DNA from: a virus
Virus record (IMG/VR): IMGVR_UViG_3300025880_000056
Location: 1 to 31,799 of that record
Reading direction: 5' to 3' (one strand)
Length of the DNA: 31,799 nt
A program made the position numbers and the translations under genes. Under the pieces are notes generated by a model. The model made no database searches. It saw only the letters and a program-made list of their open reading frames with translations, and was not told where the DNA came from. The number at the start of each line of letters is the position of its first letter. Within the stretch, counting starts at the first letter, position 1. Of this stretch, positions 2,480-26,800 are shown piece by piece.

Positions 2480-3637
2480 TTAGGTAAATGCAAGTTGGTT
2501 GCTTGTAACAGCCACTTTTGCAAGATAGTCAGCAGCATTACCGAGCGAGCTTGCTTGGTTGCTTAGTTCTACATAACCATAACGTGTCATGAAGCTAACT
2601 ACTGGCTCAAATGTATTCGGGTCTAGGACCGTGCCACTTGACATTAGCGGGATGTATGGGCAATAGAATGCCGCTGCATCTGTTTCTGTTGAACCTTTGT
2701 AACCAACAAGTACATCGTCGTTGGCTGCATACTGGTTAACATATACACGCATTGTGCCGTTTAGAGTACCTACAAACTTAGTATTTGTTGGTGCTTCAAA
2801 CGTACCTTCTGTGCTTCTTGCGAAAGCTGAAGTTGTTGCACTTTGTAGTACTGTAAGTACTGTTGGGCTAACTACTGCCCAGTTACCTGCGCCACGTCTT
2901 GTACGTGCTGCAATTGTGTTTGCATTTTTGTTGATAAGAACTGCAAGAGCTGCATGCTCGTCACCAACAAATGTAGCTGTACCTGATACGCCGCCTTGAG
3001 CGTATGTATCTGTACCACCAGCAAGACTTGTTAGGCTTGAAATGATTTCTTGATCGATTTCAGCAGTAATTTCTTGTGCAAGTGCTTGCATAATTTCTGC
3101 TTCAACGTCAAGACCATGCATGCTTTGTGCGTCTTGTGCTGCTTCGAAAGTCCAACGTGCGCTGAGCTTACGTGATTTTGCTTCAACAGTTTGTTTTAGA
3201 ACTTGAATGCTAAGTTTTTTACCTGCTTCTGCTTCTAAAGCTGATGTTGCTGCACCGCGATTGGTTGCTGCATCACCTGAATAACCGTTTGCAATTGCGA
3301 ATGGGCTTAATGCTTCATCGCCTGCTGTTGCGCTGTCAAATGTTTCAGCGTAACGCACACGTAGTGTGTGAATTTGTCCAACAGGGCCTGTCATAGGCTG
3401 TACACCAACGATTTCGTTGGCGATAACTGTTGGCATGACACGTCTAATTACTGGAAGGATTACTTTGTTTAATGTTGCAATGTTTCCACTTTGAGTAGCA
3501 CCAGCTGTAACTGCCTCTGCGAGGTAGTTCTTAGTGTTCTCAAGTGTTGTTTCCATCACCATTTTTTTCGTTCCAGTTAGACCGTCTGTTAGAGCTGCTT
3601 TAGTTGCGCTCCAATTTTCCATTAGGTTGTCTGCCAT
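2480..3637 (-). CDS. gp23: Major capsid protein, T4 gp23 family
   Basis: Forms the hexameric shell of the head. The core motif around residues 66-90 (VILPVIRRVMPTVIANEIVGVQPMTGP) is the hallmark of T4-type gp23, and the GYVELSN region near the C-terminus also fits. The protein is 385 residues, clearly shorter than T4 gp23 (521), mainly because the N-terminal part and surface insertions are reduced. A candidate gp21 cleavage site of the LxE-A type is LAE/A after residue 41, which would remove a short propeptide. AAGGAG stands before ATG at 3637. It is last in the portal-core-protease-scaffold-capsid string and is followed by a strong terminator at 2435-2458. Confidence 0.95.
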   Translation of the reverse strand: MADNLMENWSATKAALTDGLTGTKKMVMETTLENTKNYLAEAVTAGATQSGNIATLNKVILPVIRRVMPTVIANEIVGVQPMTGPVGQIHTLRVRYAETFDSATAGDEALSPFAIANGYSGDAATNRGAATSALEAEAGKKLSIQVLKQTVEAKSRKLSARWTFEAAQDAQSMHGLDVEAEIMQALAQEITAEIDQEIISSLTSLAGGTDTYAQGGVSGTATFVGDEHAALAVLINKNANTIAARTRRGAGNWAVVSPTVLTVLQSATTSAFARSTEGTFEAPTNTKFVGTLNGTMRVYVNQYAANDDVLVGYKGSTETDAAAFYCPYIPLMSSGTVLDPNTFEPVVSFMTRYGYVELSNQASSLGNAADYLAKVAVTSNQLAFT

Positions 3638-3648
3638 TTTCGGTCTCC

Positions 3649-4746
3649 TTAACTAATACCGGCTAGCTTACGAAGGTAAACAATATCTGCGCCGTTTTCA
3701 GCTTCTGCTGATTCGGTTAATGCTTCTTTATTTCCAGTGACTTCTTTCGAATTTTCACTTAGTACCTTCTTACTTGGGGTCGCATCTTCCTTCAATACTG
3801 ATGGTAGATACTTATTAAATGCGTTTTGTAACTTGTCTGTATTAGTACTTTCAAGTAATGCACTCATTATTTCTTTTTGCTGTTTATTAAGTGGGGCCAT
3901 CATCTCTTGCATGACAGCTTTGCGTTCAGCAACATCAGCTTTGATGCGAGCATCGCGGGCTGATTCTGTTAACTGTACTTCTTTTTCAGCGATTTGTGCT
4001 TTAGATTCTTCAAGTTTAACTTGTAGTTCATCCATTGCTTTGTTTAGTTTTGCAACTTCAGTACCTTCATTGAGGTAGCTGCTCATAAACTCTGCTGCAA
4101 ACGTTTCGAAAATCTTGCGACCAAACGTATTCTGTTTAGCAACTTGAATATCTTCACGTAATGTAGTAAGTTCATTCTTAATAGTATTTTCAAGAATGTT
4201 CTCAATCTTCTCAGCAGATTTTGCAATAAACTGACGTTTAGTTTCGTTGATTACTTCTTTGCCTTCTTTTATCATTTTGACTTTTGCTTCAACTAGTGAG
4301 CGTTTGTCATCATGAAACTCGTTAAGCTCTTTCGTAAGTTGCTCCATAACAAATCCCTCTAATTGAGACATGTTAGTTTCTTGCAACTTGCGGTCTTCGC
4401 GAAGTTCATTAATTTCTTTGCGAAGTGTATCCATCACAAATGAATCAAGCATTTTTGAATGCTCTTTCATGTGCTTGCGATATGATACACGATCTTCTGC
4501 AACTTTGGCTTTGTCTTCTTTGAACTCTTCGAGTTCTTTAGAAATAACATCGCCAATCATTGTATCCATAGCTTCAACAATCTGCGACTTGTCATTTTCA
4601 TAACGAGCTGCAAATTCTTCTCTAAGTTCAGCTGTGATTGTCTCACGAGCTTCCGTTAGTTGGGTTTCCCAAGCTTCAGATAACGAAGACCTGACCTCTT
4701 CGGAGAGCGTGTTTGAGTTTAATAGTTCATCCATTGCATGAGCCAT
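3649..4746 (-). CDS. gp22: Prohead core scaffolding protein, T4 gp22 family
   Basis: 365 residues, nearly all charged alpha-helix and coiled coil, with very few aromatic residues, as expected of an internal scaffold that is digested by gp21 during head maturation. Three related segments repeat in the first half, each with a hydrophobic patch followed by a KE(L/I)(N/E)E(F/L) and acidic tail: about residues 62-82, 102-122 and 132-152. The C-terminus YLRKLAGIS is typical of marine gp22 proteins. It lies between protease gp21 and capsid gp23, with a good ribosome site (TAGGAGAG) overlapping the gp21 end. Identification rests on position, composition and C-terminal motif. Confidence 0.9.
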   Translation of the reverse strand: MAHAMDELLNSNTLSEEVRSSLSEAWETQLTEARETITAELREEFAARYENDKSQIVEAMDTMIGDVISKELEEFKEDKAKVAEDRVSYRKHMKEHSKMLDSFVMDTLRKEINELREDRKLQETNMSQLEGFVMEQLTKELNEFHDDKRSLVEAKVKMIKEGKEVINETKRQFIAKSAEKIENILENTIKNELTTLREDIQVAKQNTFGRKIFETFAAEFMSSYLNEGTEVAKLNKAMDELQVKLEESKAQIAEKEVQLTESARDARIKADVAERKAVMQEMMAPLNKQQKEIMSALLESTNTDKLQNAFNKYLPSVLKEDATPSKKVLSENSKEVTGNKEALTESAEAENGADIVYLRKLAGIS

Positions 4747-4747
4747 A

Positions 4748-5389
4748 TTAATCTCTCCTATACTTCAGGTTTTTAATAAAGTTTGTTACCTCTTCCTGGA
4801 GATAACGTTGTGCGCCTTTATCATGTCTAGTTGCCTCAGCGACATCCATTAGTACGTTTCCCCGGTTATGATTCATAATTCTTTCATAAATTGGATCGGG
4901 ATAAGCACTTGGAGCACTTGGATTTGCAACAATATCAACTGTAATGATTTCAAAATCTTTTACTATGCCTTTATCGTCAACGTTGCCACTGCCTCGGCTA
5001 GACACGCCTAAATTACATCCACTCTCTATAAGGGTTTTACAAATATTTCCCATTGGAGTAGGTAATAATTTCAGCTTACCAATACCATTTGCACCATCAG
5101 TATCCATTTCTGTGATAATGTGTGATACACGATCTAAATTAATATTAAGATCATCTGGATGATCGGCTTCGCCTAATACACTGTATCCACCTTTAATTTT
5201 TTCATTGATTGCTTTAACAGCATTATGAATTTCTTCTTTGGTGTAGATACGATTGTTTTGGTTGCGTACATCGCCTTCAATAAAGATACCTTTCATATAC
5301 AAGCTCTTGCCACCGTTAGCTTCTTCGATGCTTTCGGTAACAATGTTTGCTTGTCTAAATGTTAAGTGTTCTTTTAGCGAGGTATACAT
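4748..5389 (-). CDS. gp21: Prohead core maturation protease, T4 gp21 family
   Basis: Serine protease of the T4 prohead type that digests the core and trims the capsid protein. The catalytic His lies in GEADHPDD (H77) and the catalytic Ser in GVSSRG (S130/S131), with the following DFEIITVDIVANPSAP (about 145-160) forming the conserved beta-strand region. Length 213 matches T4 gp21 (212). The start overlaps the end of the upstream acidic protein gene by close spacing, and the stop is 1 base from gp22, so the genes are translationally linked. No missing key residue. Confidence 0.95.
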   Translation of the reverse strand: MYTSLKEHLTFRQANIVTESIEEANGGKSLYMKGIFIEGDVRNQNNRIYTKEEIHNAVKAINEKIKGGYSVLGEADHPDDLNINLDRVSHIITEMDTDGANGIGKLKLLPTPMGNICKTLIESGCNLGVSSRGSGNVDDKGIVKDFEIITVDIVANPSAPSAYPDPIYERIMNHNRGNVLMDVAEATRHDKGAQRYLQEEVTNFIKNLKYRRD

Positions 5390-5390
5390 A

Positions 5391-6191
5391 TTACTTCATT
5401 CCTCTAATTGGACTGTCGCTTTTGGTAACTTCACTCTTTGCACTTGGCGCAGGGCTTAGTTTACCAGCTTCTTGAGGACCAGTTACGCCCATATCTTTTA
5501 CAGCAGGGGCACTAGCTTTAGGGCCGTCTTTTGTATCAGTTGGGTGTGGTTTAGCATGTGCATTTCCAGCGCCTTTGGCTACTGGGCTTGCTGTGTCACT
5601 GTTGTCACTGTGTGAAACACTAACTGCTGAAAGTGTGGCGCCTTCTTCCATTGGCTCTACAGATTCTTCCATTTCTGGCTCATCCATATCGTCAGCTGGC
5701 TCATCGTCCATCATATCAGCAAATGCTGCACGTAGTTCTGCAATTGCATCTTCTACGTTGTCCATGGCTTCTTCTGCATCGCCGGCTTCGTCGTCATCGC
5801 CTTCTTCTGCTTCTGGTTCCATGTCCATAGCTAGTTCCATTTCTGGAGCAGCATCGTCCATGTCCTCGTCGTCCATGATTTCTTCTTGATCAATTTCTTC
5901 TTCTGCTGTTTCGATATCGCTAAGGAAATCTTCTTCGTCATCAGAAACATTAATTGCTTCTTCGACTTCGTCCTCATTGCTATCATCGTCAGCTTCATCA
6001 AGATCGATCGTTTCGTCTAGATCCTCTTCAGAAATCTCGTCTTCTACTACCTCATCGTCTTCGGTGATACTTGACCAATGGTTTTTGGCTTTCTCAACAA
6101 ATACGTTGTGTAGGAGATCAGCAGCTTTGTCTTGCTCATCGTTAACGAGATACTCGAGAACCTTTACTAAAGATTCCTTATGTTCGCTCAT
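5391..6191 (-). CDS. Highly acidic prohead core protein, gp67/gp68-like
   Basis: 266 residues. The N-terminal 40 (LVKVLEYLVNDEQDKAADLLHNVFVEKA) look like the small prohead core proteins gp67/gp68 of T4-like phages. Residues about 43-180 are dominated by Asp and Glu with little else (DDEDMDD, EEGDDDEAGDAEE). The last 80 residues are Ser, Ala, Pro and Lys rich and probably disordered. It occupies the gp67/gp68 slot between portal and protease. LxE sites such as DLDE/A are present, consistent with digestion by gp21. Strong ribosome site AAGGAG before ATG at 6191. Role as core protein is inferred from position and charge; the acidic middle could also shape the interior before DNA entry. Confidence 0.75.
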   Translation of the reverse strand: MSEHKESLVKVLEYLVNDEQDKAADLLHNVFVEKAKNHWSSITEDDEVVEDEISEEDLDETIDLDEADDDSNEDEVEEAINVSDDEEDFLSDIETAEEEIDQEEIMDDEDMDDAAPEMELAMDMEPEAEEGDDDEAGDAEEAMDNVEDAIAELRAAFADMMDDEPADDMDEPEMEESVEPMEEGATLSAVSVSHSDNSDTASPVAKGAGNAHAKPHPTDTKDGPKASAPAVKDMGVTGPQEAGKLSPAPSAKSEVTKSDSPIRGMK

Positions 6192-6337: not shown

Positions 6338-6538
6338 TTAGCCTGCGGGTTTAGCGTAAACTTTTTTAATGTTTTCCATTCGTGATGCATGTTCAATATT
6401 ATGCACTTCACGTTGTTTTCTTAGACGATTTATGTGCTTTAGTGTAAGCCTACCTTTGCGGGTATCGTCTATTTGTCTATTATTATAATTGTCTTCTTCC
6501 GCATCATAATACTCGTTTAATATTTCTGTACTACGCAT
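6338..6538 (-). CDS. Small conserved T4-like phage protein, 66 aa, in the portal-core block
   Basis: Starts MRSTEILNEYYDAEEDN and contains TRKGRLTLKHINRLRKQREV, a basic helix pattern (RLTLxHxxxLRK) I recognise from small proteins located after gp20 in marine T4-like phages. The start is placed at ATG 6538, overlapping the gp20 stop (ATGCGTAG), because GGGGGTG lies 6 bases upstream. A longer frame to 6646 exists but would overlap gp20 deeply and has no ribosome site. Position suggests a head-assembly role (T4 has gp67 here), but the sequence alone does not prove it. Confidence 0.7.
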   Translation of the reverse strand: MRSTEILNEYYDAEEDNYNNRQIDDTRKGRLTLKHINRLRKQREVHNIEHASRMENIKKVYAKPAG

Positions 6539-8204
6539 TTTCATCACCCCCGGTTGCTTCTGCTCCACTAATTGGACTAGCACCCTCATCATCAGCTGAT
6601 GCAGCATCAACATCAATGTCAACATCTCCACCATCTGGAATATCAAATCCTCTTACACCAACGTTACCTAATCCAGGCATATCCTGGCCTTCTGGTGTTA
6701 TACCACTGGCATTTTCTTCTGCCCACATACGTTCATTTTTAAGTATTTCTGCTTCGGTCATACCTAAGTATTTCTCCATTAAGAATCTTCTACTCATGTA
6801 AGGAACACCTTCAAGTCCACTGAATACGTTAGCTCTTGCAGCATGTATTTCAATTTCTTTGTATTGACTAAAGCTCTGTGGCTCTACAAATTTAAGATCA
6901 AACAAGCTAGCATCAATGCTAAGACCTTTGTTTTTCATAAACAGTTTAAATTCTTTGTCCATAGTAGGAGCAATAGTATTTTGTAATCTCATACAGTATT
7001 GATTAAATCTATACTCTTGAATAAATGCAGTACCTACTCTTCCATCAACATGTGTTGCAGTACCATCATCTGGACCTGTTGGCAAATAACTGCTAGGAAC
7101 ACGTAATGCTCTTAGCATTTTGTTTGTAAAGTAACGCAAGTCATCAATTTGACCGAGGTTCTCACCGCCTGGTAATACTTCAACTTTACTACCTCTGCCT
7201 TCAGCAGTTTGGGCAAAAAAGTAGTCTTCCATAATACTTAATGGATTATATGCAGCATCCATAATAGTTGTGCCGCCACCTGTTTTGTTAGGAATACGCT
7301 TTTGGTGTATTTCGTTTTTGACACGCTCAACAAAACCCATAGCTTTGTTGGGAGGCATATTACCCACGTCAACATAAAATACTCTACGCTCTGGAGCACG
7401 TTGTACTCGATAGATAATAATACTATCTTCTAGTAGTTCTTTTTGCTTGTAGGTTTTAAAGATTGGATCTAAAATACTGGAACCAAAGGGCCAATTGTTG
7501 TCCATGCCTTCGGTGAGACCCATGTGTACAACATGTGTTGCATCTACATTATATTCTTGTATAGTTCCTAGACTATTACTGTAGTCTGCGCTATTATTAG
7601 CACCATATGCTCCGCGGTCCAGTGTTTGTCCACGCATCATACTGTTAACTGTGCCATATGTTTGAGAATGTTGCACAGGCTGACTAACTGTTTTTTCTTG
7701 CATATTAACATCAAGATTTTTCATTATGTATTGTTCTGGACGTTTACCTTTGGCTTCGTTAACAATGCTTTTGGTAACATCTACAGGATTTACATAGTAT
7801 AATTCCCATGTTTCTGGATCTCTGATAAAAAATTGATCCCCGTACTTAACAGTGTTACGGAACATTCTAAAAATACGTTTGTCCCAATCTTGCAGACTAC
7901 ACCATTGTTGTAGTGTTTGCTCAAGAATTCTGCTTTCGCTTTCTGTAGCAGTTTCCTTGAATTCAATTTTAAAAGGAACATTAGTTGTTTCGTCTAGCTG
8001 TGTGCTAAATTCACTGATAATATCAAGAGCAGCATTGATTTCACTGTCCATGTCCATTTGATCATATTGTGCATAACGCTCAACTCTATTTGGTTGACCG
8101 CTGTATACTTCCGGTAGCCAGCTTTGAAAACGACTAGAACTACTAGGTTTCATGCCCCCAGCTTCTTGTCCGCCGTATACTGTAAAGTGTTTTTTCCAGC
8201 TCAT
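6531..8204 (-). CDS. gp20: Portal vertex protein, T4 gp20 family
   Basis: Forms the dodecameric portal that starts prohead assembly and passes DNA. Conserved blocks: SEINAALDIISEF (about 55-67), the YGDQFFIRDP region near 120, DPIFKTYKQKELLEDSIIIYRVQRAPERRVFYVDVGN (about 240-280), and the YLPTGPDDGTATHVDGR-type region near 385. Length 557 compares with 524 in T4; the extra residues are mainly an acidic, Gly/Ala-rich tail. It is preceded by overlapping early and late promoter sequences at 8223-8251 and leads the head transcript. The last 8 bases overlap the next gene. Confidence 0.95.
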   Translation of the reverse strand: MSWKKHFTVYGGQEAGGMKPSSSSRFQSWLPEVYSGQPNRVERYAQYDQMDMDSEINAALDIISEFSTQLDETTNVPFKIEFKETATESESRILEQTLQQWCSLQDWDKRIFRMFRNTVKYGDQFFIRDPETWELYYVNPVDVTKSIVNEAKGKRPEQYIMKNLDVNMQEKTVSQPVQHSQTYGTVNSMMRGQTLDRGAYGANNSADYSNSLGTIQEYNVDATHVVHMGLTEGMDNNWPFGSSILDPIFKTYKQKELLEDSIIIYRVQRAPERRVFYVDVGNMPPNKAMGFVERVKNEIHQKRIPNKTGGGTTIMDAAYNPLSIMEDYFFAQTAEGRGSKVEVLPGGENLGQIDDLRYFTNKMLRALRVPSSYLPTGPDDGTATHVDGRVGTAFIQEYRFNQYCMRLQNTIAPTMDKEFKLFMKNKGLSIDASLFDLKFVEPQSFSQYKEIEIHAARANVFSGLEGVPYMSRRFLMEKYLGMTEAEILKNERMWAEENASGITPEGQDMPGLGNVGVRGFDIPDGGDVDIDVDAASADDEGASPISGAEATGGDENA

Positions 8205-8222
8205 GTGAATCTCTTTTGTTTC

Positions 8223-8251
8223 ATTATACTAATATTTATACGTTTTGTCAA
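8223..8251 (-). promoter_or_regulatory. Nested consensus sigma-70 and T4-late promoters before gp20
   Basis: On the minus strand a perfect TTGACA (8246-8251) and a perfect TATAAT (8223-8228) are separated by exactly 17 bases. Inside that spacer lies a perfect T4-late TATAAATA (8233-8240). The predicted late start is near 8227 and the early start near 8216, both just upstream of the gp20 ATG at 8204. Everything here is directly visible; promoter use is inferred. Confidence 0.75.
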
Positions 8252-8254
8252 CTG

Positions 8255-10117
8255 TTAGTTTGCGTTCAGTGCGCCGTGCAGCTCTTTAAGAAGTCTCATA
8301 ACAGTTGCCATCTCTGGCCCTTCATTTTGCGTTGTGTTTGGATCATCACGTTTGCGAAGCTCTTCTTTAATGGCGTCGAGAGCTGCACGGCTGGATGGGT
8401 CGTTCATGTTACTCATATTCAGATTCGCATATGATTCTATCCCTGATATTAAAGCATTCGCATTAGTAGGTCCCGCTAGTAGCTGTGCGAGTTTATCTTG
8501 TCCAGCAACGCCTGCAACTTGTGAAGCAATCAACATCGCATCCATAGCCAGCTGGAAAGAGCCTGCATCTTCTATACCTAACATTCGCATCATCGGACGT
8601 ATAGCCGTTTGTCCGAATGCTGTACCAGCAGCGACAATTAATTTTTGAAACTCACTGTTAGGGTCGGAGAGTTTGCTACTAAATCCTTCAGCCATGCCGC
8701 CAATGGCTTCGCCTAGATTTGCTATCCCATCAGTTCCAGTCATTGATTGAATAAAAATACCTGTTGAGGCTTTTATAGATGCTGCAACTTCATCCATAGT
8801 ACTAGCCAGACCCCGTAGACCTTTATTTTTTTCTGCATTTCCTACAGTTTCATTTATTGCTTCTTCATATGCTTTAGTAACATTGTCTATTGATTGAGTT
8901 CTGGCTTGAATAGCTAGAACTGCTTCTGCAGCCGAATTTCCAAACGTTGCCATTATCCGGAATTGCTGCGGATCTAGTATACCACTTTTTTTAAGATTTG
9001 ACACTAGTTCTTGACTTTGTACAGCAAAATCTTCTGTGCTTATCGAAGCATCACCAAGACTATTAGTTACAAAGTTAATTAAATCCTGTGCACCTTCTCC
9101 GAAAAACCTAATGAGTTGAGGAGCAAATGCGTTGGCGGGAATGCCAGTTGCTATCCCTGTCAGTATAGCGTCACTCAGCTCTTTACCTTGAGGACCCATT
9201 GAACCCAAAGACTCTGCTAGTCGTGCAAATTGTTGTTGGGTATGCATGGTTTGCTCTGACAGATAACTCTGTGCTACTGCACCCTTGCGAGCTTCCATAC
9301 CTGCTTTTCTTCGTTCCTGTACGTCTTGCCCTGTAATAGCTGCCATTGCTTCATTAATTTTTAAAGTTTCGACCATCTGATCAGTAAACTCGCCAGTTTT
9401 AAGATTTCTCAAACCTTCTGTGCCGATTGTTTGACGTCTAATTTCTAATTCATCTGCTAATATCATAGCCATTTCGTCGGATTTCATTCCAAAGAATCCA
9501 AAATTTCTAGTGCCGTCACGCACAGCCTTTCCTAATTCTAAAAATCGGTGCATGCCTTGACTTGTGGTGTCTCCTAGTCCTGCCATAACAGCACCGTTGG
9601 TGCCGACTATTTTACCAAATTGATCAAGTGTAAGTCCTAGATTACCTGCTTGGGCTTGTACTTCAATTAACTTATCGCCAAAATTAACACCAACTCTGGC
9701 AGTTTTATTCATTACTTCACCTAGTTCTTCAGCATAGCCGAATGCCATGCCAAACTGAACGCCAAAATTGGCCATACCCATCGCATCAAAAATCCGTTGA
9801 CTGAAAGCGCCAGCTTTGGTCTCGTCACCTAATCTTGATATTCCAGCCGCCGCTCCAGAAGCCGAATTTGTCGCGCCTCCGATTCGAGAAGTCATTTTAC
9901 TCAACAAACTTTTTTGTGCAGCGTTACCTTGTTCTATACTTTTAGACAAATTATTAACTGCCCGCTGAGTTGAATCGCCGCCTGTTTTAACACCACCTAA
10001 TGCATCACGTATACTTTTAGATACATCTAGTAGATCTCGTTGAGTACCTTCCATAGCAAAATCAGGTACTTCTATTGGTACAGGTCTACCCCCTATTGGT
10101 ATTGAAATTATTGCCAT
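8255..10117 (-). CDS. Probable tail tape-measure protein (gp29-like)
   Basis: 620 residues, mainly alpha-helical, rich in Ala, Gly, Gln and Met, without obvious enzymatic motifs. The N-terminus (IISIPIGGRPVPIEVPDFAMEGTQRDLL) is followed by helices with small residues and hydrophobic segments at about 110-130 (MANFGVQFGMAFGYAEELG) and 465-490, as in tape measures. Length is close to T4 gp29 (590). It is the only such protein in the window and lies back-to-back with the gp26/gp51-like pair, the kind of frameshifted pair that accompanies tape-measure genes in many tailed phages. A late box stands upstream at 10159-10166. No T4 signature was read directly, so the call rests on composition, size and context. 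Confidence 0.6.
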   Translation of the reverse strand: MAIISIPIGGRPVPIEVPDFAMEGTQRDLLDVSKSIRDALGGVKTGGDSTQRAVNNLSKSIEQGNAAQKSLLSKMTSRIGGATNSASGAAAGISRLGDETKAGAFSQRIFDAMGMANFGVQFGMAFGYAEELGEVMNKTARVGVNFGDKLIEVQAQAGNLGLTLDQFGKIVGTNGAVMAGLGDTTSQGMHRFLELGKAVRDGTRNFGFFGMKSDEMAMILADELEIRRQTIGTEGLRNLKTGEFTDQMVETLKINEAMAAITGQDVQERRKAGMEARKGAVAQSYLSEQTMHTQQQFARLAESLGSMGPQGKELSDAILTGIATGIPANAFAPQLIRFFGEGAQDLINFVTNSLGDASISTEDFAVQSQELVSNLKKSGILDPQQFRIMATFGNSAAEAVLAIQARTQSIDNVTKAYEEAINETVGNAEKNKGLRGLASTMDEVAASIKASTGIFIQSMTGTDGIANLGEAIGGMAEGFSSKLSDPNSEFQKLIVAAGTAFGQTAIRPMMRMLGIEDAGSFQLAMDAMLIASQVAGVAGQDKLAQLLAGPTNANALISGIESYANLNMSNMNDPSSRAALDAIKEELRKRDDPNTTQNEGPEMATVMRLLKELHGALNAN

Positions 10118-10136: not shown

Positions 10137-10144
10137 GATAAATA
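10137..10144 (+). promoter_or_regulatory. Late-promoter-like box GATAAATA before the gp26-like gene
   Basis: One base off the T4 late consensus; with T4 spacing RNA would start near 10150, giving a 26-base leader to ATG at 10176. It faces the minus-strand box at 10159-10166. Confidence 0.4.
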
Positions 10145-10158
10145 CTTTTATATACTGT

Positions 10159-10166
10159 TATTTATA
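10159..10166 (-). promoter_or_regulatory. T4-late promoter box TATAAATA before the tape-measure gene
   Basis: A perfect late box on the minus strand in the 58-base gap between divergent genes. Predicted start near 10153, leader about 36 bases to ATG at 10117. Confidence 0.6.
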
Positions 10167-11658: not shown

Positions 11659-12087
11659 TTATGACTGGTGTCTGTTTAGAGATTCTACAAGTGCCTTAGA
11701 TCCGCCAACGCGGACATTTATTATGCCGTTGTAATATTCATCTGTTTCTAAAACTTTACGATCAAATTGCTCCCTAGCTTCTAGGTAACTCATTTCGCCT
11801 CTGCCTGTACAGAAGTAAAGTATTTCTCTTGTAAAGTTTTCTTTGCCTAAGTTTTCAACATCTGCGTTTAACTTGTCACTGCTTCCCCAGTAGGTCTTCC
11901 AGTCACTTTCTTTAGTTGAACGCCTTTTGTTTTTTCTGCCTTTGAGTGGTTTTTTAGTTACTTTAAATTGTGCCAGTTTTTTGCCAATGTACTTTTTACC
12001 GTTCGTGGTATTGGTTATGAGGTATACAAATCCTACGTATTCCTCTGGTATTTGTTCAACAATTTTGTCTTGATAAGTCCATTGCAT
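11659..12087 (-). CDS. GIY-YIG nuclease-domain protein, 142 aa
   Basis: The N-terminal domain carries GFVYLI (19-24), KKYIGKK (Y33-I34-G35), a KNKRR basic patch (52-56), the metal-binding Glu in YLEAREQF (E103), and the conserved Asn in YYNGI (N120). These are the GIY-YIG nuclease landmarks. There is no C-terminal DNA-recognition module like those of Seg or I-TevI homing enzymes, so the domain stands almost alone. Close relatives are common in marine T4-like phages as stand-alone genes; cutting activity and target are unknown. No Shine-Dalgarno is visible before ATG at 12087. It has a sigma-70-like promoter at 12105-12134 and is followed by the structured RNA region. Confidence 0.85.
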   Translation of the reverse strand: MQWTYQDKIVEQIPEEYVGFVYLITNTTNGKKYIGKKLAQFKVTKKPLKGRKNKRRSTKESDWKTYWGSSDKLNADVENLGKENFTREILYFCTGRGEMSYLEAREQFDRKVLETDEYYNGIINVRVGGSKALVESLNRHQS

Positions 12088-15925: not shown

Positions 15926-15933
15926 CCTAAATG
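15919..15933 (-). repeat. 15-base repeat CATTTAGGTTGACAT, copy 2
   Basis: Same 15 bases as 12128-12142; here it holds the gp55 stop codon and the -35 of the gp47 promoter. Confidence 0.8.
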
Positions 15934-16802
15934 TTGAAGCCGTGTTCTTTGCGTTCTTTGTCTGCGGCTTCGTCCCACTTAGCACGTTCTGCCATTTCGT
16001 GTTCAATTTGGCGTGTCCAGCTAGGCATCTGACCATTTTCTTGTAGTAGGTCATCTCTGATGTTTTGATTACGCTTTTCCAAGTTCAACACTCTTGTAAA
16101 ACTGTTTGTAACTGCGGCAGTGTAATATGCAAACGGGTTTTGACTTTTAAGTTCATTGAACTGTAGTCCAATTTGCGATAGCTGTAGTAGTGCATGACTA
16201 CGCATTTCATCTACATATGTATAACCACGCCAGTTGCTGCGCATACTGTAACGTTCGCATAGTTTAATATACATTTTTGCTAGGTTATTAGTGATCTTGC
16301 CATGCTGTGTATTGAAATGTCCATTATCGAATCCGCCTTCCCAGTGACTGCGGAGTACTTCTGTAAGTTCTCCGTTCACATAAGCATAGTGTTGGAAAGG
16401 TGGGAAGTTACACTTTGCATGGTGATCTGCGGTAGTTTTAGGTTTGCTTTTTCTTCCAGGTTCTAGCGGTACATGATCAAATGTCATCAAACGAAAAATA
16501 AGCGTGTTTTCTTCAATTGTATCTGGATCGATTTTATATGTAATCTGTTTGGGTTTCTGACTAGCTTTGCCGTTGTTATCGAACCAATCCCAATACGCTG
16601 ATTCATATGCTTGTAAACTTAGCTGATGAGCTCTGCTTTCTTTAGCTAGTTGTATAAATTCAGGATTATTCACATCTGCAATGTCTTCGACAATTGTATC
16701 AAATCTATTATATTCTTCATCGTGACTGCTACAAAAACTGAGTTTACTTTTGTGTATTTCTTTGAGCATGTCCTTGTTGTTTAAATATTTTTGTTTTTTC
16801 AT
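15927..16802 (-). CDS. gp55: Late-transcription sigma factor, T4 gp55 family, with internal insertion
   Basis: gp55 replaces the host sigma factor and directs RNA polymerase to TATAAATA late promoters. The conserved core is at residues 170-252: NNLAKMYIKLCERYSMRSNWRGYTYVDEMRSHAL, then LQFNELKSQNPFAYYTAAVTNSFTRVLNLEKRNQNIRDDLL, the sigma region-2-like helices. The N-terminus KYLNNKDMLKEIHKSK (5-20) also matches marine gp55. Between them are about 140 residues with no place in T4 gp55 (185 aa), ending in LRSHWEGGFDNGHF; total length is 291. It heads the 55-47-46 string and has a strong sigma-70 promoter at 16826-16854, fitting early or middle expression. Confidence 0.88.
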   Translation of the reverse strand: MKKQKYLNNKDMLKEIHKSKLSFCSSHDEEYNRFDTIVEDIADVNNPEFIQLAKESRAHQLSLQAYESAYWDWFDNNGKASQKPKQITYKIDPDTIEENTLIFRLMTFDHVPLEPGRKSKPKTTADHHAKCNFPPFQHYAYVNGELTEVLRSHWEGGFDNGHFNTQHGKITNNLAKMYIKLCERYSMRSNWRGYTYVDEMRSHALLQLSQIGLQFNELKSQNPFAYYTAAVTNSFTRVLNLEKRNQNIRDDLLQENGQMPSWTRQIEHEMAERAKWDEAADKERKEHGFNI

Positions 16803-23841: not shown

Positions 23842-26800
23842 TGGCACAGGGCGCAAGACAGAGCAGTTTATTTGCTGCAGAAGATTTTAGTGTTGTATAC
23901 GAAAGTTTTAGCGAAGCTAATTTTCAAGCATACGATTTTGAAACTATACGTAACAGCATGGTTGATTACATCAACAACAACTATCCAGAAAATTTCAATG
24001 ACTGGATTAGTTCAAGTGAGTTTGTAAGTTTAATTGAACTTATGGCTTTTTTAGGTCATAATTTAGCATTTAGAGCAGATTTAGCAAGCAGAGAGAATTA
24101 TTTAAGCACAGCAGAACGCAGAGAAAGCGCCCTACGTATTGCTGATTTCTTAGGCTATACTCCTACTAGAAATATTGTTGCTAGTGGTTATTTAAAAGTA
24201 GACAGTATTACAACTGATGAAACAATTTATGATGTTAATGGTGTTAGTCTTGCAAACACTACACTACAGTTTGAAGACTTAGTAGACCCAGACGCTTATC
24301 AAAATTTTATCACAGTAATGAATGCAATTTTTCAAAGTACAAGTCAGTTTGGATCTCCGTTTAGTAAATTTATTAATAACGGTATAACAAACGAGATTTA
24401 CAGAACTACTAGTATTAATAATACAACTACAAAAAGTTTCAGTAATTCTGTTAATGGCAGTAGTGCTAGGTTTAGTTTACACAGTGTAGCTTACAACAAC
24501 AAAAATTTAATTGAAAAAGACCCAGACCCGTATGGTGTTATAGATATACTTTACAAAAATGACAACAGTGGATTTGCAAGTGCAAATACAGGATTTTTTG
24601 TAGGATTTAAACAAGGTACATTGGAATATCAGGACTTTAATATCAATGACGGTTTACCTAATATGGTAATAGATATCAATGAACAAAATATTAGTAATGG
24701 AAATATTTGGGTACAAAGTATCGACGAAATAGGAACTGTTCAAAAAACATGGAGTAGAGTTGATAGACTGTTCGGACTTAATGCAATTTTTAATGCAAGT
24801 CAAAATGGTGTCAGAGATATCTATACTGTGGCTAGTAGAGAAGATGATCAAATTAGTATTGTTTTTGCAGACGGAGATTTTGGTAACATACCTAAAGGTA
24901 TTATCAGAGTCTGGTATCGAGCAGGACTAAATGAAAGCTACACTTTAAATCCTGACAATTTTAATTCAACGTCTTACAGTTTCACTTATATTGGTGCTGA
25001 TGGGAATTCTCATAATGCAAGACTCTCATTGAGTCTTAAAAATAATGTCACTAATGCTAGTACTAGAGAAAGTGTAGATAGTATAAAAGCAAACGCAGGC
25101 CGTTTTTTTGCTACACAAGACAGAATGGTAACAGCAGAAGATTATAGTATCTTTCCTGTTACAGTAAGTGAAAATATTCGTAAGATAAAAAGTGTAAACA
25201 GAGTACACAGCGGACATAGTAGATTTAGAGATTTTTACGATCCAACTGCAACTTACAGCGATGCAGTAAACTATCTGACCGATGGTTACCTGTACGAAGA
25301 TAATGTAACTACTCGTAGTTTAATTAACTTACCCACTAGTAATAATAGTAATCAAATATATCAAAAGTTTTTGAAACCTCTATTGAATAACCCTGAACTT
25401 AAAAACTTTTACTATAACAGACACACATACAGTGGATTACATATAGCAGCTAACAGCTATAGTGAAGCTGGCTTGGGTATTAATGTGTTCAATGCTAATA
25501 ATAGTGAAGACGGTGTGTTTAGATGGAATCAAGTTACTAAAGGTGCTAACACTTGTACAGGATATATCACATATAATGCATTTGTGCAGAGATTAGGAAG
25601 TGTTGCAACTAATAGCTTACACAAACTACAAGTAAATGGATTAGCAGAATTTATTACTGCTCCATATAAAATTGGATATGTTAAAACAATTAATGTTGTT
25701 GATCAAGGTAGCGGATACACAACTGTACCATCTGTTACACTTCTAGGCGCAGGCAATGGCGCCACTGCAATTGCCAATGTTAGTGCTGGTAAAGTTATTA
25801 GTATTACTATAACTGATACTGGCCAAAATTATACATCGGCAACTGTGTGTAATATTACTGGCGGCGGCGGCACCGGATGTATTGCTACTGTTACAGTAGA
25901 CAGTGCAGATACCAAATGGGTAAGAGTTACAAAACTTTTCAAAGATGGACTTGGCAATGACAACAACACCGGAGCACCTACTGGAATTGATACGTCAGGC
26001 AAAGGTGCAGTGAGTATCAATGCTGTAATTCCAAGTGGCGCTAGAATTAGGAGACTTGTTCCTAGCTGGAGCTCAGACTTAACAACAACGGTAAAAGATA
26101 GTTTAATCTCTAAATTAGAATCAAATGTGGATTTTGCACTAAGATTTAATCCTAGTAGCCAAGAATGGATGTTGGTAGATAGTGCAAATTTGCCCAGTAA
26201 TAGTGTACTCAACAACAGTGTAGACAAATGGAGTAGACTGTACGAAGGTGATAATACAAATAATGGCAGAGATAACAGTTGGACAATCCGAGTTAACTAT
26301 AACAATACTTACTGGGAAATACTAACTAGAAAATCTAGATTTGTATTTGGTAGTGATTCAGAAGTAAGATTCAACAACTTAAATTTTGAAGAAACATTCA
26401 GCAGTGAAACACTTAAACCGCACAAAGATACAGTAGAGGTATTAGACATAAATCCTACTAGCAGCACAAACGCAATACCTTTGGGCAAAAACTATAAGTT
26501 CAATACATTTGGATATTACACATACAATGACGGATTTACAGATCCATATAAAATACGTGTTACTTTAGCCGATCCCGACAATGATGGTTATCCATCTAAC
26601 CCGGAAGCATTTTTAAATGTAACAAAAAATCAAAGCATCAATCTAGGAACAACTACAGAAAATGGTTATACATTTGTAGTACAAGATAATGATAATGGAA
26701 GTACAATAGTAACTGGTAGAGGAAACTTGAGAACCAAATATCAGAGAATTGCTGATCTAAATCAACTGATAGATCCTAGCACTACTAATATAATTGATAC

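Follow-up and report, generated by a model that had tools for sequence, protein, structure and literature searches.

The head genes of a T4-like phage represented by a 31.8-kb virus record (IMG/VR record IMGVR_UViG_3300025880_000056, the whole 31,799 nucleotides of which are termed the window here) appear to be preceded by a dual promoter, which would serve the string from portal to capsid gene with the host sigma-70 polymerase before replication and with a gp55-type late polymerase afterwards. We assign this reading a probability of roughly two thirds, based on two overlapping promoter signals and on their occurrence in related phages. Since both signals are kept by relatives, gp20 is probably activated two times, each time by a different form of one polymerase.

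On the minus strand of the window a gap of 50 bases (8205-8254) separates a 620-aa ORF from gp20, the product of which has its nearest counterparts, among the cultured phages listed, in the jumbo phages Phosso, PA5oct and Atu_ph07 (50-55% identity). As stated in an earlier, sequence-only reading of this DNA, the gap contains a perfect sigma-70 promoter, TTGACA-17-TATAAT, with a perfect late box in its spacer (TTGACAAAACGTATAAATATTAGTATAAT at 8251-8223 and TATAAATA at 8240-8233, both on the minus strand). A search for TTGACA-N15..19-TATAAT detected exactly one site in the window, namely this one, and its hexamers (12/12) and spacer of 17 fall within what is expected of a near-consensus sigma-70 promoter with a spacer of 16-18. 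The late box ends 28 nt before gp20, a structural gene, as would be expected of a T4-type late promoter. Head genes of T4-like phages, T4 gp20 among them, are classic late genes. On the minus strand of the head string, from 8233 to 2418, neither a further TATAAATA-like box (exact or with one mismatch) nor another sigma-70-like site above 9/12 was detected, leaving the composite as the sole strong promoter candidate of the portal-capsid string.

A sigma-70 polymerase starts 7 nt after TATAAT. The T4-type late box spans positions -13 to -6 relative to the start, according to the available text of PMC1524935. The starts predicted from these geometries (Table 1) lie 11 bases apart in the window, in agreement with the distance of about 11 bases proposed earlier, and 10 bases apart in most relatives with the nested arrangement. 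The earlier placing of both promoter types on the same DNA also finds support, as the two putative promoters overlap ahead of the portal-capsid string; the further parts of that proposal, namely competition between the polymerases, low early and high late output, or head protein made early, would be possible consequences.

Table 1. Positions of the composite promoter and of associated features in the window.
Feature	Position	Strand	Evidence
-35 hexamer, TTGACA	8246..8251	-	exact in 45/45 gp20 upstreams having a sigma-70 promoter
T4-type late box, TATAAATA, inside the spacer	8233..8240	-	exact ATAAATA in 42/45 gp20 upstreams chosen for the sigma-70 promoter alone
-10 hexamer, TATAAT	8223..8228	-	mean pairwise identity 0.89 over 37 nested relatives
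Predicted late start, 6 nt past the late box	8227	-	T4 late-promoter geometry (PMC1524935, available text)
Predicted sigma-70 start, 7 nt past TATAAT	8216	-	usual geometry of sigma-70 promoters
gp20 portal, first downstream gene	6531..8204	-	PHROG phrog_213 portal, E 1.2e-116
Rest of the head string: 266-aa ORF, gp21-type protease, 365-aa ORF, gp23-type major capsid protein	2480..6191	-	
Putative structural gene of 620 aa, upstream; 3 bases between its stop and the -35	8255..10117	-	phrog_14121, E 2.2e-5
gp55-like late sigma factor, expected reader of the late box	15927..16802	-	phrog_12791, E 2.3e-85; phrog_234, E 5.5e-23
Plain late box, TATAAATA, before the 620-aa gene (comparison case)	10159..10166	-	best surrounding sigma-70 score 8/12

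In the window TATAAATA alone is not enriched (4 seen versus 3.9 expected), a perfect sigma-70 promoter occurred in 12 of 100 shuffled windows, and the combination of a perfect sigma-70 promoter with a nested late box was found in none of 150 simulated windows. The case against chance that can be made from the window alone is modest; as far as sequences can tell, the decisive evidence is the conservation in relatives.

The upstream regions of gp20 were obtained by two scans of viral contigs with the gp20 of the window and of one relative as queries (best 80 matches each), so that the sample leans to close kin. The 153 loci including the window, some of their contigs having been fetched by both scans, yielded 62 distinct upstream regions of 55 bases; loci with fewer than 55 bases upstream were left out, and a few gp20 starts sit some bases downstream of the true ATG as the match begins at residue 3. 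Both elements were present in 42 of the 62 upstreams, namely nested in 37, with the late box after the -10 in four and overlapping the -10 in one, and the others carried only the late box (15), only the sigma-70 promoter (three) or neither (two). The conservation in relatives on which the sequence-only reading had made its proposal depend therefore holds for the pair in these 42 upstreams and for the late box in 57/62, and fails for the sigma-70 half in the 17/62 from which it is absent (present in 45/62). After shuffling, 1.9% of the upstreams contained a sigma-70 promoter and 8.7% an ATAAATA. The sigma-70 score was 12/12 in 33/62.

Within the 37 nested upstreams the mean pairwise identity was 0.49-0.52 for the spacers and 0.34 and 0.52 for the flanks, the -10 being much better preserved (Table 1); the value of 1.00 for the -35 and the late box is partly by construction, since the nested class was defined by ATAAATA or CTAAATA together with a -35 of at least 5/6. 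The spacer between -35 and -10 is 16 or 17 in every gp20 upstream having a sigma-70 promoter, and the gap between late box and -10 is 3 nt in 31/37 nested upstreams although the distance to the -35 varies. A gap of 3 places the predicted starts 10 nt apart, which is about one helical turn, and the gap of 4 in the window places them 11 apart. Relatives retain both boxes while the surrounding letters vary, and judged from this pattern the co-occurrence is not luck.

In a gp20 tree of the 62 rows, rooted at the midpoint for drawing only, the five rearranged upstreams, which keep both elements but have the late box downstream of the -10 or overlapping it, form one clade (support 100/98). The nested state needs four changes on this tree and rows with only the late box are interspersed with nested rows, suggesting that the sigma-70 half was lost or gained more than once. 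By eye, the sigma-70 half, and with it the composite, is absent from all six printed gp20 upstreams of cultured jumbo relatives. Taking these relatives together with the upstreams noted above that lack it, the sigma-70 half is a clade trait and not a general rule for head genes.

Besides the window, a wider comparison covered six virus records in full and 20 kb of one more, with late boxes counted as exact ATAAATA between ORFs called by a simple script and before a same-strand ORF. Eleven of the 75 late boxes lie within a sigma-70 promoter of 11-12/12 and the remaining 64 score at most 9, compared with 0.06% of late boxes reaching 11/12 when the flanks are shuffled. These 11 composites precede only gp20 (seven) or a 115-aa gene (four), termed X here, which is present in at least 80 viral contigs (L246-L325). 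Viewed from the other side, 18 records contain 48 perfect sigma-70 sites, of which 14 include ATAAATA, 11 of them at gp20 and three at X. For the comparison of plain with composite late promoters 12 rows were classed as gp20 or X by ORF length, one of which, the single row without a -35, was taken as an unrelated ORF of 560 aa (G004, 117412). At least 4/6 of TATAAT at a gap of 2-4 was found in 43 of the 63 plain late promoters versus 37% by shuffle; a TATA after the box being common there, part of the -10 signal may be a property of late promoters. A TTGACA of at least 5/6 at the distance seen in the composite occurred in 0/63. The notion that a -10 comes at no cost with a late promoter was only partly confirmed, the TATA peak lying 2 nt after the plain box and mostly 3 nt after the box in composites.

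Some further promoter sites were observed in these records. Near-identical late promoters (aaacATAAATAtgtata...) precede six consecutive long ORFs in record G004 (105023-119483; L205), and promoters of the same type precede two long ORFs in record G001 (at 25943 and 30169; L208), giving the impression of a duplicated late-gene cassette. A divergent pair of late boxes at 10138-10166 of the window belongs to a baseplate-hub-like gene on the plus strand and the 620-aa gene on the minus strand; the same pair in the records G003, G004, G005, G006 and G010, with starts 18-23 bases apart throughout, indicates a conserved bidirectional late promoter. A sigma-70 site of 11/12 (12134-12105, minus strand) is located 17 bases before the ORF 11659-12087 of the window, the PHROG matches of which are NAD synthetase and homing endonuclease.

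The 80 loci of X sampled from viral contigs gave 64 distinct upstreams, all of which contain a sigma-70 promoter (64/64, with an exact TTGACA in 59 and a -35/-10 spacer of 16-18). A late box is present in 53/64, nested in 49, upstream of the -35 in three and downstream of the -10 in one, and there is none in 11. Its sequence is ATAAATA in 43 cases and CTAAATA in 10, the latter being a late-promoter form reported for Aeh1 in the available text of PMC1524935. As at gp20, the gap between late box and -10 is mostly 3 nt (42/49 nested upstreams). X looks like an early gene that acquired a late box, and gp20 like a late gene that acquired an early promoter.

With regard to the function of X, a single member had no PHROG match at E 0.01 and no Pfam match, an alignment of 47 members produced scattered weak PHROG matches (best E 0.0018), and the best match among solved structures (E 0.038) was not related by name. 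In the cultured-phage collection no match was found by tblastn at E 0.01. The structural model is confident (pLDDT 91.6) and consists of a helix, two hairpins and a helix; a Foldseek search against the PDB yielded nothing below E 0.09, and the VIA-align superposition on prefoldin (Z 8.2, 4.0 Å, 99 aligned residues) may reflect only a common helical arrangement. BFVD contains one close uncharacterised match (E 1.4e-5) in addition to weakly matching DUF4376 proteins. X has the same preceding genes in four records, and one such gene in G004 has weak structural and tail-fibre PHROG matches. To call X a tail-fibre chaperone on account of this gene neighbourhood would be a guess.

Many matches of a broad scan of viral contigs for the composite could, by rough estimate, arise by chance in A/T-rich DNA, and a scan with fixed geometry and a flipped-box control was therefore run. 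The exact geometry of the window was found in at least 119 stretches of all viral contigs with the forward box versus 97 with the flipped box. These raw counts alone are weak, and the argument is the recurrence of downstream families. Among the matches listed, the forward set comprised 46 distinct downstream proteins of at least 60 aa, assigned by PHROGs to Hsp20 (12), tail tube (6), amidase (4), gp32-type single-strand binding protein (2) and late sigma factor (1), with 25 of 31 families listed. None of these families was among the 25 of 35 families listed for the 46 proteins of the flipped-box control, where none listed had more than two members. The composite at gp20 thus belongs to a small class of promoters, other members of which precede X and, in further viral contigs, hsp20, gp19-type and gp32-type genes. 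Sites without an ORF of at least 45 aa within 100 bases were more frequent in the forward set (52/119 of the matches listed) than in the control (28/98). The contigs of some of these ORF-less forward sites encode Hsp20 relatives (L543 and L555 are the contigs of L748 and L734), and the limit of 100 bases thus hides some downstream genes.

In the broader scan five gp32-type proteins and two gp20-type portals were found among the 56 proteins of the matches listed. Pfam confirmed gp32 (L086) and HSP20 (L085, L141, L487), and the tail-tube representative L131 had no Pfam match. Contigs with the composite at hsp20 (L085, L105) or at the tail tube gene (L131, L151, L183) encode, in addition, proteins related to other T4-like products of the window. 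Of two nested ORF readings at L164, only one entered alignment A6. In one contig (L519) the composite is located 55 bases before a late sigma ORF (4265-5164, plus strand), the product of which is 47% identical to the gp55-like protein of the window; a composite ahead of the late sigma gene would make a feedback loop. Composite-like sites were also noticed before short ORFs that have the motif NDRTP in common (L114, L128, L139, L142).

The 66 distinct hsp20 upstreams, one locus (L726) being too short for this count, comprised 25 with TTGACA, ATAAATA and -10 nested, 13 fused, six with the late box only and 22 with neither. In the fused form, TTGACA-17-TATAAATA, the late box doubles as the -10 (L689, L693, L712, L718 and others). 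The hsp20 promoters of viral contigs thus share the nested form with gp20 and differ from the gp20 geometries by the fused form, and their sum of 38/66 is biased upward since the relatives were drawn with composite-bearing queries. Among cultured phages no perfect composite was present in the hsp20 upstreams of ten of the 502 matching records. The upstream of HTVC008M contains a 10/12 site the -10 of which is part of a late box (fused type), that of P-RSM1 contains a 10/12 site without ATAAATA, and that of S-CAM7 was taken from the start of the match and not from the annotated start.

The T4 late box is read by polymerase equipped with gp55, gp33 and the gp45 clamp, an arrangement that ties T4 late transcription to replication (available text of PMC1524935 and PMC2988020). 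The window encodes a gp55-type late sigma factor (15927-16802) of 291 aa, in which the gp55 profile matches residues 141-276 and about 140 extra N-terminal residues are conserved in relatives. A fused gp55-gp33 protein, considered because of this length, was not adopted: the extra part is N-terminal, and the model of the protein is poor (pLDDT 66). The gp55-like gene has its own sigma-70 site (11/12, 16854-16826, minus strand) without a nested box, which fits an early synthesis of the late sigma factor.

The arrangement in the window resembles T4 late promoters in its box TATAAATA, in the structural genes that follow and in the gp55-like sigma factor of the genome, but differs in that the box sits within a full sigma-70 promoter. 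To our knowledge, T4 late promoters have no -35. According to the available part of a cyanophage review (PMC2984593), overlapping early and late promoters are believed to drive middle transcription in RB49, the S-PM2 homologues of MotA-controlled genes have both promoters, and Syn9 has a number of such genes; for a few genes of S-PM2, quantitative PCR gave no middle profile. In these T4-like phages without MotA an early promoter resembling that of sigma-70 and a late one (NATAAATA) are located ahead of one gene, as are the early and late promoters of the window. However, the genes described there are homologues of T4 middle, MotA-controlled genes, whereas gp20 encodes the portal and the genes concerned here are the portal-capsid string and X. 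A further difference is that the late box occupies the spacer of the sigma-70 promoter here, in most cases with 3 nt between it and the -10, and has been traced through many relatives.

The jumbo phages CBB and GAP32 also have the ATAAATA motif, CBB being related by its portal (47.8% identity). The paper on CBB (PMC5259590) describes, apart from each other, 18 promoters of RpoD type and 35 ATAAATA sites associated with structural genes; unlike the window, CBB has by eye no composite at gp20, and the available part of that paper does not mention an overlap of both promoter kinds. In the available text of the literature surveyed, where RB49 and S-PM2 are covered by the review, there is no description of an early promoter at gp20 or of a sigma-70 spacer with a late box inside. 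Early-plus-late promoters have already been reported for RB49 and cyanophages, and what appears to be new, as judged from the sequences, is the compact nested arrangement at a portal gene.

It might be argued that the late polymerase, or an activator from the phage, makes additional DNA contacts at TTGACA and TATAAT within an extended late promoter, at which host sigma-70 never starts. Such a reading would suit gp20 as a late head gene in T4, the TATA-like stretch following the box in plain late promoters and the gap of 3 nt that prevails in nested upstreams of both gp20 and X, as if box and -10 were one unit. Yet the -35/-10 spacing of 16-17 at gp20 and 16-18 at X is the sigma-70 optimum, the pair keeps its 17 in the rearranged upstreams though the late box shifts to either side, X always has the pair even in the 11/64 upstreams devoid of a late box, and no TTGACA stands at the corresponding distance in the plain late promoters; an extended late promoter is therefore considered unlikely. 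Somewhat less likely still, the sigma-70 promoter could act as a brake, the host holoenzyme occupying the site early with little RNA made and the late promoter remaining closed until sigma-70 is displaced. The footprints must indeed overlap with predicted starts 10-11 nt apart, and RNA with the short early leader of the window (about 12 nt) may be poorly used. A brake seems unneeded, however, given that the late polymerase requires gp55 anyway; moreover, the -10 and the spacing suit productive starts, and the early leader of X (about 20 nt by inspection) would contain a full AGGAG site.

The -35/-10 pair could also be read by a phage-encoded sigma factor or a middle-mode activator instead of host sigma-70, making the composite a middle-plus-late promoter. 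CBB encodes a sigma factor with regions 2, 3 and 4 (available text of PMC5259590), and the early-plus-late pairs of RB49 and the cyanophages are thought to serve middle transcription (available text of PMC2984593). Against these precedents stand the perfect host consensus of the pair and the PHROG scan of 20 window proteins, in which no such sigma factor appeared, and we consider this reading very unlikely. Least credible, and disfavoured, is a coincidence by luck of A/T-rich promoters of both kinds that persisted by shared descent. Each element alone is near its chance frequency in the window and promoters are inherited among related phages, but the boxes persist amid changing spacers and flanks, sigma-70 promoters surround 11/75 late boxes against 0.06% by shuffle, both elements are kept in rearranged geometries, and the flipped-box control was without a recurrent T4-like gene family among the families listed.

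With a dual promoter as the preferred reading, host RNA polymerase and its main sigma factor would read TTGACA-17-TATAAT before replication and produce the first gp20 RNA from about 8216. After the gp55-type sigma factor has replaced the host sigma factor, the same core polymerase would read TATAAATA and start at about 8227, approximately one helical turn upstream, for bulk late synthesis. Owing to the overlapping footprints the two polymerase forms would exclude each other from the site, and replacement of the sigma factor would act as a hand-over on the same DNA. We infer the use of both halves, its timing and strength and the hand-over. The benefit is probably that the portal would be available ahead of bulk capsid protein. 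With an early leader of only about 12 nt and a ribosome site near the 5' end, the early RNA might be poorly translated.

More tentatively, and with odds that we put clearly below even, the composite may represent a class of dual-sigma promoters with starts one helical turn apart, controlling a small assembly-start regulon that is handed from the pre-replication polymerase to the replication-coupled late polymerase. Its possible members would be the portal, X, Hsp20, the tail tube, the gp32-type protein and, in one contig, the late sigma factor. If this were true, the nucleating ring and chaperones would exist before bulk capsid protein.

That a conserved promoter of host type encloses the late box ahead of the portal gene suggests transcription of the head string before replication in some T4-like phages. 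The composite would be a small and experimentally accessible example of one promoter shared by two sigma factors, and may serve as a sequence signature for dual-phase genes in phages for which neither a culture nor RNA data are available.
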